From Gimibacter soli (lineage in GTDB: Bacteria; Pseudomonadota; Alphaproteobacteria; Sphingomonadales; Kordiimonadaceae): 64,000 bases of DNA. The translations under genes were made by a program, and so were the position numbers. The notes below the pieces were generated by a model. The model ran no database searches. It was not told the DNA's origin and was given only the letters and a program-made list of their open reading frames with translations. The stretch lies in contig NZ_CP116805.1 of assembly GCF_028463845.1 (NCBI RefSeq), forward strand, positions 1,674,001-1,738,000, read 5' to 3'. The first letter of the stretch is position 1; each line of letters starts with the position of its first letter. Below, piece by piece: positions 39,104 to 42,079 of this stretch.

Positions 39104-39469
39104 ATGGAGAAGAAGATCCTGATCGTCGAAGATAACGAGCTTAATATGAAGCTCTTCTGCGACCTTCTCGAAGCCCACAACTACAAGGTTATCCAGACCC
39201 GGGATGGGATGGCGGCGCTTGATCTGGCCCGCGAACACAATCCCGATCTGATCCTCATGGACATTCAGTTGCCCGAGGTTTCCGGCCTTGAAGTCACAAA
39301 ATGGCTAAAGGAAGACGAAGACCTGCGAAAAATCCCCGTTGTCGCCGTGACGGCCTTTGCCATGAAGGGTGACGAGGAAAAAATCCGCGAAGGCGGATGT
39401 GAAGCCTATATCGCCAAGCCGATTTCGGTCGGCCACTTTCTTGAAACCGTCAAGCAGTTTGCCGGGTAG
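39104..39469 (+). CDS. divK: Single-domain response regulator DivK
   Basis: A 121-residue receiver-only protein that, in Caulobacter relatives, controls the DivJ/PleC and DivL-CckA-CtrA circuits. It has the acidic pair in [18 protein letters not shown], phospho-acceptor D53 in [13 protein letters not shown], the Thr in VVAVTAFAM and the Lys in AYIAKPIS. Length equals that of other DivK proteins. The ATG at 39104 follows GGGGTGGT. PleD starts 6 bases after its stop, the conserved alphaproteobacterial order. Confidence 0.94.
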
Positions 39470-39475
39470 TAATCG

Positions 39476-40852
39476 ATGACAGCCCGTGTTTTGGTGGTGG
39501 ACGATGTGCCACCCAACGTCAAGCTTTTGGAAGCGAAGCTGACGAGCGAGTATTTTGATGTTCTGACGGCTTTCAGTGGTCCCGAAGCGCTGGATGTGAT
39601 CTCGCGCGAACATCCCGATATCATCCTTCTTGATGTCATGATGCCCGGCATGGACGGGTTCGAGGTATGCCGCCGCATCAAGGCGGACGCTGCGACCTCG
39701 CACATCCCTGTGGTGATGGTGACTGCCCTTGACCAGCCTTCCGACCGTGTGGCGGGGCTTGAGGCGGGCGCTGACGACTTCCTGACGAAGCCTGTGCAGG
39801 ATCTGGCCCTTTTCGCCCGCGTCAAATCGCTGGTGCGCCTGAAGGTCATGATGGACGAGCTCCGGAACCGCGAGGCAACGGGCACCACGCTCGGCTGGGA
39901 AGGTGATCTGGACGATCCGATTGCCAACGAGCTGCCTGACAATGCCGCCATCCTTGTGGTGGACGAACAGGAACGCGTGATGGAGCGTATTGCCCGCGCG
40001 CTTGAAGGGGTCGGGGACGTCACCTTCATGACGGGCGGCGACGATGTAGCCGAGCGTGCCCGCGAGAAATCGTTCGACCTGATCATCGTTTCGCTCACCA
40101 TGAAATCGACGGACGGCCTGCGGGTCTGCTCCAAGCTTCGCTCGTTCGAGGAAACGCGCCACGTGCCGATTCTTGTGATGGTCGACGATGGCAATGCCAA
40201 ATTCCTCGTCCGCGCCCTTGAGATGGGCGTGAACGACTATGTGGTGCGCCCCGTCGACCGGATGGAGTTTCTGGCGCGGGTGAAGACCCAGCTGAAGCGC
40301 AAGCGCTATGCCGACAAGCTGTGGGAAAACTTCCATGTGTCGATGCAGCTTGCCACCACCGACGCGGTGACCGGGCTTTATAACCGTCACTATCTGACGA
40401 CCCACATGGAAACCCAGCTGCAGACGGCGCAGAAGCGCGGCAAGCCGCTATCCGTGATGATTCTCGATATCGACTTCTTCAAGAAGGTCAACGATACCTA
40501 CGGCCATGCCGCGGGCGACCTTGTGCTGAAGGAATTTGCGAATCGCATCGCCCGCAATATCCGCGGGGTGGACCTTGCGGCCCGTTACGGCGGCGAGGAA
40601 TTCGTAGTGATGATGCCCGATACGCCGCTTGACTGGGCGCATATGATTGCGGACCGGTTGCGCCAGGAAGTGGCGGAGCAGTTTTTCGATATCGGCTCCA
40701 GCGACGGTCCGATCAATGTGACCGTGTCGATCGGCGTGGCCGTGGCCGGCGAAAGCGCGACCCCTGCCGAGCTTCTGGACGCCGCCGACAAGGCGCTTTA
40801 TGCCGCCAAGGAAGGCGGGCGTAACCGCGTGGTGCTGGCGCCGACCGTCTGA
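39476..40852 (+). CDS. pleD: Response regulator/diguanylate cyclase PleD (REC-REC-GGDEF)
   Basis: A 458-residue c-di-GMP synthase controlling polar development in relatives. The first receiver has phospho-acceptor D53 in ILLDVMMPGMDG. The second (about 155-275) is an adaptor receiver with Ser in place of the acceptor (IIVSLTMKSTDG). The catalytic domain has GGEEF at 372-376 and an intact product-inhibition site RGVD at 363-366, in the same spacing as Caulobacter PleD. So it should be an active, feedback-controlled cyclase switched on by phosphorylation. Confidence 0.95.
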   Translation: MTARVLVVDDVPPNVKLLEAKLTSEYFDVLTAFSGPEALDVISREHPDIILLDVMMPGMDGFEVCRRIKADAATSHIPVVMVTALDQPSDRVAGLEAGADDFLTKPVQDLALFARVKSLVRLKVMMDELRNREATGTTLGWEGDLDDPIANELPDNAAILVVDEQERVMERIARALEGVGDVTFMTGGDDVAERAREKSFDLIIVSLTMKSTDGLRVCSKLRSFEETRHVPILVMVDDGNAKFLVRALEMGVNDYVVRPVDRMEFLARVKTQLKRKRYADKLWENFHVSMQLATTDAVTGLYNRHYLTTHMETQLQTAQKRGKPLSVMILDIDFFKKVNDTYGHAAGDLVLKEFANRIARNIRGVDLAARYGGEEFVVMMPDTPLDWAHMIADRLRQEVAEQFFDIGSSDGPINVTVSIGVAVAGESATPAELLDAADKALYAAKEGGRNRVVLAPTV

Positions 40853-40874
40853 TTCCGGCGGGAAAAGACAAAAG

Positions 40875-40905
40875 AAAAAGGGCTGTGAAACTCACAGCCC
40901 TTTTT
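40875..40905. terminator. Bidirectional terminator between pleD and rpmG
   Basis: A perfect 14-bp stem (40875-40888 with 40892-40905) around a 3-base loop. It has A-runs on the left and T-runs on the right, so it can stop pleD transcription on the plus strand and rpmG transcription on the minus strand. Confidence 0.88.
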
Positions 40906-40930
40906 CGTATCACCTGCGGTGAAAGCCAGA

Positions 40931-41098
40931 TTACTTGATCTTGGCTTCCTTGAACTCAACATGCTTACGGACGACCGGGTCGTACTTCCGAAGGACCATC
41001 TTTTCCGTCATGGTGCGCGGGTTTTTCTTGGTCACATAGAAGTAGCCGGTGTCAGCAGTGCTGAGCAGCTTGATCTTGATGCTGGACGGCTTTGCCAT
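40931..41098 (-). CDS. rpmG: 50S ribosomal protein L33
   Basis: A 55-residue basic protein of the large ribosomal subunit. The translation begins [18 protein letters not shown] and contains [20 protein letters not shown] and [14 protein letters not shown], an unbroken match to alphaproteobacterial L33. It lacks the zinc-binding Cys pairs, so it is the zinc-free form. It follows the pleD terminator in convergent orientation, as in many relatives. Confidence 0.95.
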
Positions 41099-41308
41099 CG
41101 GTCTTACTCCGAGAATTCCGTTAACGAGATCGCCAGTTGGCGACCGGTTCGACGGCGCAACATACTGTCAGGGGGCGATAAGTCAAGCGCAGATTGGCCA
41201 TTCTGGCGGGAAAAATCCGCCCGATGGATCAATTACCCGAAAACGCTAATGGATGAGTAACTAATCCTGTGCCAAAAGAGGGGCACACAATTTGCGACGG
41301 GGCCCAGA

Positions 41309-42079
41309 ATGATTACCGAAAACGAGCTGCTGCAGGAACTGAGAACCGAAGCGATTGATACGGTTGAAGACCGTCTCGCCGGCCTTTCGGAGACCTTGCA
41401 GCGCTTTGGCGACAGCAATCTGAAATCGCGGGATATCCTGGCCACGGTCAAGCTTGAGGTCCATTCGCTGAAAACGGTGGCGGCCAGCTTCGACATGAAG
41501 GCTCTGAAGGCGGTTTGCCACCGCTGCGAAGATTATATCTTCAACCTTTCGGATCTGGCCCCGCAGGCGATTGTCGATATCCAGACATTTGCCGACCGCA
41601 TGTCGGAATGCCTCGATGCCTTCGTCCATAACCGCGACGTCGATATCTCGCAACTGGTGCGCAAGCTGCCAGCCAAACGGGCAAGCTTTGAAGTTGGCGA
41701 TGTGACCGTCACTGACATGGAAGTGATGCTGGTGATGGAGCCGGGCACGGCGAACAAGATCGTCACCCGCGAGCTTCTGGAATGTGGCTACCGCATGGTC
41801 AACGTGGCCTCCACGATGGATGCCATCCAGTTGATCCCCTCGATGCGGCCGGATCTTGTGATCGTCTCGCGCGTGATGCCGGAGCTTTCGGGCGTCGATC
41901 TTGCCTGCGCGCTACGCTCCATGCCCTCCACCCGGGCGATCCCGGTGGCGCTTCTGGCGTCTATCGAGCGCAACGACCCGCACCTTGCCGACCTGCCGAA
42001 AGACGTGCCGGTGCTGCGCAAGGGTACCAATTTCTCGAACGATGTCGCCGACGTCTTCGTGAAGCTCGGGATTCTCTAA
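41309..42079 (+). CDS. HPt-like/pseudo-receiver two-domain protein
   Basis: A 256-residue cytoplasmic protein. Residues 1-115 are helical and resemble a histidine phosphotransfer domain, with a candidate phospho-His H52 in VKLEVHSLKTVAASF. Residues 135-256 have the alternating pattern of a receiver (MEVMLVMEPGTANKIVTRELLECGY, then LVIVSRVMPELSGVDLACALRSM), but the acceptor Asp is Ser187 and the acidic pair is reduced to one Glu. A Lys near 238 remains. It diverges from rpmG and converges on rnr. A phosphorelay role next to divK-pleD is inferred. Confidence 0.7.
   Translation: MITENELLQELRTEAIDTVEDRLAGLSETLQRFGDSNLKSRDILATVKLEVHSLKTVAASFDMKALKAVCHRCEDYIFNLSDLAPQAIVDIQTFADRMSECLDAFVHNRDVDISQLVRKLPAKRASFEVGDVTVTDMEVMLVMEPGTANKIVTRELLECGYRMVNVASTMDAIQLIPSMRPDLVIVSRVMPELSGVDLACALRSMPSTRAIPVALLASIERNDPHLADLPKDVPVLRKGTNFSNDVADVFVKLGIL

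Follow-up and report, generated by a model that had tools for sequence, protein, structure and literature searches.

The open reading frame at 41309..42079 of the window (the whole 64,000-nucleotide stretch of the Gimibacter soli genome analysed here) encodes a small signalling protein with a likely working HPt domain and a receiver domain unable to take phosphate. The first-pass annotation had noted an HPt domain and an Asp-less receiver in this frame, and that observation is confirmed. Both domains are known; their fusion, and the family it defines, appear to be new as far as NCBIfam and the open-licence PMC literature show. The following features were assigned to the gene:

41309..42079, + strand: HPt-pseudo-receiver gene (ORF with ATG start, 256 aa and stop codon)
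41318..41626, + strand: HPt four-helix bundle, residues 4-106 (Pfam, AlphaFold, fold and profile comparison)
41462..41464, + strand: codon of His52, the predicted phospho-His, in HSLKT context (His in 27/28 orthologues; aligned with the His of CheA P1)
41660..41671, + strand: RxLP linker motif, residues 118-121 (P121 in 78/78 and R118 in 69/78 further family members)
41714..42076, + strand: Asp-less pseudo-receiver, residues 136-256 (fold comparison, AlphaFold, active-site alignment)
41867..41869, + strand: Ser187 codon, where a receiver normally has its phospho-acceptor Asp (alignment; no Asp in 106 family rows)

Domain organization of the protein

The model of the whole protein, predicted by AlphaFold from a 50-row family alignment, has a mean pLDDT of 87.0 and a pTM of 0.81; its linker region contains a short helix (residues 113-118), after which the receiver fold begins. 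All NCBIfam matches to the 256-aa protein are far under the cut-offs (best 39.2 vs 296.2 bits), and no description of an HPt-pseudo-receiver fusion or family was found in the literature searched, namely open-licence PMC papers, in agreement with the earlier remark that no named protein has this architecture.

The N-terminal half matches the Pfam family Hpt (PF01627) on residues 10-88 with an E-value of 1.6e-8 and a score of 35.1 bits, which passes the cut-off of 24.6. Helices are predicted by AlphaFold at residues 4-35, 40-60, 64-78 and 85-106. Since receivers took up the fold lists obtained with the whole model, the HPt half was modelled alone, and residues 1-115 gave a four-helix bundle with a pLDDT of 91.6 and a pTM of 0.82. 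The first-pass annotation had made its reading depend on such a bundle, and the one predicted is CheA-P1-like: the best match in VIA-align was CheA P1 (1i5n), with a Z of 15.0, an rmsd of 2.4 and 106 aligned residues. At E <= 0.001 Foldseek matched nothing; its list is headed by a designed bundle (3.0e-3), followed by 1i5n (3.5e-3). Redesigned and designed bundles score close to CheA P1 in the fold comparison, and the sequence match to CheA P1 is therefore the stronger evidence. In the search of solved structures with a family profile of residues 1-115, CheA P1 chains were found at E-values from 8.9e-9 to 4.2e-6 (2ld6 at 8.9e-9, 1i5n at 1.1e-7), the top match being BRIC1, an engineered repeat protein (1.3e-11). 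In all four alignments displayed, the His column of the profile sits on the His of the HxxKG motif of CheA P1.

The active-site stretch reads His52-Ser-Leu-Lys55-Thr56, so that HxxK is present and the Gly of HxxKG is absent, with Thr56 in its place; this Gly is common in HPt domains and not universal. The phospho-His that had been called plausible at H52 is thus placed within a Pfam match above the cut-off, in a CheA-P1-like bundle and in line with the His of CheA P1. Judged from the alignments and the model, His52 is the predicted phosphorylation site, and the HPt half is likely functional. With CheA P1 and the Hpt family (PF01627) the protein shares the four-helix bundle, the aligned active-site His and HxxK; it differs from them in being a 256-aa protein without kinase domains, in the Thr after Lys and in its fusion to a dead receiver.

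Residues 136-256 have a receiver fold, with Z up to 17.6, an rmsd of 2.1 and 120 aligned residues against solved structures, and match CheY, DivK and PleD at Z of about 17, which bears out the earlier expectation of a receiver in this half. Pfam Response_reg (PF00072) reached 26.9 bits on residues 151-216, under the cut-off of 30.2, and in the AlphaFold model helix alpha4 is reduced to a three-residue turn between beta4 and beta5. Ser187 stands at the position of the phospho-acceptor Asp; the acidic-pair position after beta1, with two acidic residues in DivK or PleD, holds Met143-Glu144; Ala217 is found at the receiver Thr position, and Lys238 is retained at the conserved Lys after beta5. Because of Ser187 and Met143-Glu144, the receiver is without what metal binding and phosphate acceptance need. 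According to the alignment and the model, this half is a pseudo-receiver, that is, a receiver fold lacking the residues for phosphotransfer, and is predicted to be incapable of phosphorylation. The description of a pocket with Ser at the Asp position and one acidic residue was right for the query, but Glu144 occurs in only 16/28 orthologues.

The second receiver of PleD (window 39926-40315), encoded two genes from the HPt-pseudo-receiver gene, is likewise a pseudo-receiver with Ser at the phospho-Asp position. Derivation of the family pseudo-receiver from it was considered and rejected. The receiver tree included 16 family pseudo-receivers, 28 of the 37 receiver places of the genome, DivK, and six PleD proteins with both of their receivers; the PleD second receivers form a branch of their own (100/100), and all 16 family pseudo-receivers form another (100/100) on a long stem (2.27 changes per column). 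Given this single branch and the absence of Asp from every member examined, the loss of Asp looks old and the domain maintained, not decaying.

In the genome containing the window, five other HPt matches were found, four of them above the cut-off. The gene at 41309-42079 is the sole family member there at E <= 1e-12 in the profile search, and the search of the genome with the query matched, besides this gene, only receivers. Outside the window, at about 2355335-2356970 of the same genome (G000:C1; L136, 329-1965), three adjacent minus-strand ORFs encode an HPt-like protein (HDMKGQGGTFGYP), a receiver and an HPt protein; this group looks like another small relay cluster.

Distribution and conservation of the family

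Full-length orthologues were found in 28 of the 29 Kordiimonadaceae genomes, and some match in all 29. Their identity to the query is 56-97%, with 84 positions invariant over the 28; the named relatives are Pseudokordiimonas caeni (97%) and several Kordiimonas species. The contig scan for relatives yielded 14 loci, all of close relatives, and plasmid searches for the named relatives gave nothing of full length. The first-pass annotation had also staked its reading on conservation of H52 among orthologues, and His52 is kept in 27 of the 28 (Arg in the other, L041), with Lys55 in all. Residue 56 is Ser in 20, Thr in five and Ala in three orthologues, Gly being absent. In the pseudo-receiver, residue 143 is Met in 28/28; residue 144 is Glu in 16, Ala in nine and Gln, Gly or Pro in the rest; residue 187 is Ser in 27 and Asn in one (L041); and Lys238 is present in 28/28. 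L041, which belongs to Kordiimonas sediminis by its contig, thus has both Arg52 and the sole Asn187, and is also among the four orthologues without the upstream element described below. The remaining genome, G006, has no HPt-pseudo-receiver gene, yet contains divK, pleD, rpmG, rnr and topA in order.

The orthologue profile at E <= 1e-12 detected the family in 46/385 genomes sampled across the class (45/384 without the genome of origin) and, at the order level, in 49/196 genomes, 28 of which are Kordiimonadaceae. From the class level, 57 of the 59 genes at E <= 1e-12 outside the genome of origin were taken (omitting G127 and the second place in G372), and from the order level, 21 of the 23 places beyond the 28 orthologues (omitting G417 and G422). 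The 78 further family loci examined include two paralogues within Kordiimonadaceae; L072 gave no match. The position of the phospho-acceptor Asp holds Ser in 55 of the 78, Ala in 11, Thr in six, Asn in three, and Gly, Gln and Pro in one each. Accordingly, Asp occurs at this position in 0/106 members, comprising the 28 orthologues and the 78 further loci; as none has it, the dead receiver is probably ancestral in the family. The conserved Lys position holds Lys in 40 and Arg in 14 of the 78, and Thr-Ser after beta4 is kept in 72/78. In one further member, L207 (G055:C51), located beside divK-rnr-topA, the pseudo-receiver has a gap between two matched pieces in one open frame, and Pro stands at the Asp position; the gap may reflect a real deletion or a faulty assembly.

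The His52 position is readable in 77 of the 78 further members, L117 being partial, and holds His in 45 and another residue in 32. On a quick tree of 83 rows, built with the His column excluded, the His state changed at least 10 times. The 45 His-bearing members kept Lys in 37 cases and the Gly of HxxKG in 37, as against six and 10, respectively, in the 32 His-less members. This joint retention of His and HxxKG is as expected if the His-bearing members are under selection for phosphotransfer. For scale, a published review of aspartate-less receivers counts 90 of 10,312 Hpt domains (0.9%) without His and 3,111 of 152,269 receivers (2.0%) without Asp (PMC12632262); the 77 readable members all belong to one family and do not count as independent cases.

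Mean pairwise column identity is higher in the pseudo-receiver than in the HPt domain in all sets compared: 0.40 vs 0.27 over the 77 members, 0.79 vs 0.62 over the 28 Kordiimonadaceae and 0.48 vs 0.29 in the His-less members alone. The least conserved stretch of the pseudo-receiver is the place of alpha4 (0.39 in Kordiimonadaceae). In the aligned sequences, the conserved part of the family is the pseudo-receiver together with the linker proline P121, and His52 is less fixed. With the HPt His lost in 32/77 members, docking via the pseudo-receiver is a likelier candidate for the constant part of the function than phosphotransfer.

Gene neighbourhood and upstream element

In the window, divK and pleD on the plus strand are followed by rpmG on the minus strand, the HPt-pseudo-receiver gene on the plus strand, and rnr and topA on the minus strand. 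The features around the gene are as follows:

39104..39469, + strand: ORF which we take to be divK, with a single receiver domain
39476..40852, + strand: pleD, with receiver, pseudo-receiver and GGDEF domains (ORF, Pfam)
40874..40906, - strand: terminator-like hairpin (15 pairs; minus-strand score) separating pleD from rpmG
40931..41098, - strand: ORF, presumably rpmG (ribosomal protein L33), antisense, between pleD and the HPt-pseudo-receiver gene
41242..41271, + strand: conserved upstream element, an 11-bp-spaced TAA repeat (CTAA-N7-GTAAC), with CTAA 63 bp from the start codon
42086..44392, - strand: ORF assumed to be rnr (ribonuclease R) in view of synteny across loci, convergent, with its stop 7 bp past the stop of the HPt-pseudo-receiver gene

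The plus strand of the hairpin at 40874..40906 also ends in a T run; terminator-like hairpins occur at two sites in 1.4 kb, against 1.3 expected from shuffles. Because the minus-strand rpmG and the hairpin lie between, the gene neighbours divK-pleD without forming one operon with them and looks monocistronic. Its position next to divK-pleD, to which attention had been drawn, therefore stands as a neighbourhood and not as an operon partnership.

The order divK-pleD-(rpmG)-HPt-pseudo-receiver gene-rnr-topA is kept in several lineages. In the search for co-occurrence with divK and pleD that had been proposed, 14 of the 78 further loci have divK in the flank (13 of them also pleD, L207 being without it) and three have rnr-topA only; 61 have none of divK, pleD, rnr and topA in the fetched flank. 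Flank lengths differ and some are cut by contig ends, so the 17 linked loci are a lower bound. Raw counts show His in 16/17 linked and 29/60 unlinked members, an association that is not phylogenetically independent and is therefore unusable as proof of a tie between His and linkage; with a sign test restricted to independent pairs, the median p was 1 (4 pairs, supported branches). Three genomes (G087, G222 and G315) each contain a linked copy with His and an unlinked copy without it, and G222 and G315 have an additional unlinked copy in which His is present. Ten proteins encoded next to unlinked members were scanned with Pfam and represent an AAA ATPase, enoyl-CoA hydratase, AhpC/TSA, GlnE, aminotransferase, alpha/beta hydrolase, PAS histidine kinase, pentapeptide repeat, SEC-C and globin-MCP; no common theme was found among the ten.

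The pattern NTAAY-N6-GTAAC was found upstream of the gene in 24 of the 28 orthologous loci and nowhere else in these loci (<= 3.8 kb) on either strand. Its beginning lies 60-78 bp ahead of the start codon in 21 of these loci and 102-164 bp ahead in the other three. In longer loci of 14 relatives (8.5-12.8 kb), the element was present once in 13 and absent from one. With a matrix built without the genus of the window, the window site scored 20.3 bits and the next site in the 64 kb 2.5 bits. Outside the orthologues, a looser form was found upstream of one of 17 linked and four of 60 unlinked members; given so few matches, the element is a feature of Kordiimonadaceae. Around the site in G006 where the gene is missing, 14 kb contain a single match to a looser pattern, which lies inside rpmG and lacks the GTAAC half; as G006 lacks both the gene and the full element, the element is tied to the gene rather than to rpmG.

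A wider set of sites was also sought. In the genome of origin, YTAAN7KTAACYA had 12 matches, two of which are one palindromic place, against six for the reversed control, and no cell-cycle or flagellar gene was recognised by eye among the ORFs flanking these places beyond the gene's own neighbourhood. At L148, which we take to be the ctrA locus, the matrix gave no site above 5.0 bits. A long form of the element, searched with two mismatches allowed in the 29 family genomes, had 23 matches in 17 genomes; 17 of them lie upstream of the gene, and the six elsewhere have two mismatches each. The long form was unmatched in the genome of origin and in 11 others. Six further matches against 13 in the reversed control are at chance level, and hence no regulon was found. 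A CtrA regulon was accordingly dropped, the matches beyond the gene being at chance level and no further cell-cycle gene being recognised by eye beside the sites. The TAA half-sites of the element are spaced as in the CtrA site published for R. sphaeroides, TAA N7 TTAA (PMC9430884), with G for T, a resemblance in spacing only; control of the element by CtrA is a lead, not a result. As a separate observation, several TTAA-N7-TTAACYA sites in the genome of origin (L210-L221) lie near ORFs with signal-peptide-like starts, as judged by eye, and possibly represent a regulon unrelated to the HPt-pseudo-receiver gene.

Proposed function

The protein stands about an even chance of being a soluble phosphotransfer adaptor, in which an HPt domain is steered by a phosphorylation-independent docking domain. 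Computation covers both folds, the conservation pattern, the neighbourhood and the upstream element; that His52 passes on phosphate, that the pseudo-receiver docks and which proteins are its partners is inferred. The HPt domain would probably carry phosphate on His52 between receiver domains. The pseudo-receiver, not being phosphorylatable, would dock on a kinase or receiver partner without phosphate and would bring the HPt domain to it, and an intact HPt domain would exchange phosphate with the receiver there. The partner would plausibly belong to the network including CckA, DivK and PleD, as the neighbourhood suggests. In relatives without His52, the docking function alone would remain.

The adaptor function is favoured by the HPt fold and motif, by His52 in 27/28 and Lys55 in 28/28 orthologues, by the joint retention of His and HxxKG, by the stronger conservation of the pseudo-receiver and, as raw counts that ignore phylogeny, by the share of His-bearing members among linked (16/17) vs unlinked (29/60) loci. 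Counted against it are the Ser, Thr or Ala after Lys55 in all 28 Kordiimonadaceae, where 37/45 His-bearing relatives have Gly, the Arg52 of L041, where the gene is kept nevertheless, and the separation of the gene from pleD by rpmG and the hairpin. Moreover, G006 has divK-pleD-rpmG-rnr and no such gene, and the network can therefore work without the protein.

It had been suggested earlier that the protein is a scaffold or a phosphate sink; a scaffold is plausible, whereas the receiver half, having neither Asp nor the acidic pair, cannot be a sink. The main rival of the adaptor is a pure scaffold or kinase inhibitor, possible but on the whole unlikely, in which the pseudo-receiver would bind a kinase transmitter (CckA, PleC or DivJ type) so as to block or redirect it, the HPt bundle serving as no more than a second binding surface, even with His52 kept. 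This would account for the absence of His from 32/77 readable relatives with the pseudo-receiver still conserved, also in the His-less ones (0.48); the retention of His52 (27/28) and Lys55 (28/28) in Kordiimonadaceae is something that a scaffold does not need. A precedent is Osp of Rhodobacter sphaeroides, described as an alphaproteobacterial receiver-like inhibitor of CckA, without the acidic pair, presumed monocistronic and with a CtrA-like site upstream (PMC9430884). This site, TAA-N7-TTAA, lies 54 bp upstream of the osp start (PMC9430884); here TAA-N7-GTAA lies 60-78 bp upstream in 21/24 loci and 102-164 bp upstream in three. Compared by description, Osp is a single domain with Asp kept and Lys lost, the reverse of the HPt-pseudo-receiver family, and in the passages on its distribution it is confined to clades of Rhodobacterales (PMC9430884).

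Other published systems resemble the protein in part. Aspartate-less receivers and pseudo-receivers share with it the receiver fold without phospho-Asp; the present protein has, in addition, no acidic pair, a turn for alpha4 and an HPt domain as its fusion partner, and the passages on these proteins describe no HPt-pseudo-receiver fusion (PMC12632262). A 2015 census lists 312 proteins of type RRHPt, likewise with one receiver and one HPt domain per protein (PMC4558063), and the bare combination of receiver and HPt is therefore not new. The receiver comes last in the present protein; the census passage is silent on domain order and on whether the receiver is dead or live (PMC4558063).

An elaboration of the adaptor function, improbable as a whole, is that of an old adaptor family, undescribed in the literature searched, that would set the output of CckA-DivK-PleD. 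The dead receiver would dock on the kinase transmitter and the tethered HPt domain would drain or reroute phosphate; His would have been dropped in many lineages, leaving a pure kinase binder, and a CtrA-like operator of its own would close a feedback loop.

That the pseudo-receiver binds a small molecule, e.g., c-di-GMP from PleD, and thereby controls the HPt domain is quite improbable. The gene does have pleD as a neighbour, and the pseudo-receiver of ShkA binds c-di-GMP (PMC7010744), but the contacts in ShkA are on the alpha4-beta5-alpha5 face (PMC12632262), and here alpha4 is a turn in the model. In the Caulobacter ShkA-ShpA-TacA relay, a pseudo-receiver and a phosphotransfer protein also take part in one cell-cycle relay, but, compared by description, they belong to separate proteins, and ShkA is a kinase (PMC7010744). 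The place of alpha4 is, moreover, the least conserved stretch of the pseudo-receiver in Kordiimonadaceae (0.39). Very improbable is a phosphate sink in which the HPt domain would drain the phosphate of DivK or PleD via His52 without onward transfer. HPt domains can take phosphate from receivers, and divK-pleD is the neighbourhood of the gene; against this, the receiver half cannot hold phosphate, and phospho-His normally equilibrates back to receivers, so that a lasting sink would need a phosphatase. A decaying HPt-receiver relic without function, to which the loss of the catalytic Asp, and of His in relatives, might point, is hardly credible beside 84 invariant positions over 28 orthologues of 56-97% identity, a conserved upstream element and presence in 28/29 Kordiimonadaceae.

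Pseudo-receivers are common, and their mode of switching is described as largely open (PMC12632262). The family represents a natural series, in which the same dead receiver is joined to an intact HPt domain in some lineages and to an inactivated one in others, and the form with intact HPt adjoins divK-pleD in several lineages. It allows docking to be separated from phosphotransfer within one and the same protein. Should CckA, PleC or DivJ prove to be the partner, the cell-cycle network of alphaproteobacteria would gain one more input, beyond the Caulobacter and rhizobial models.
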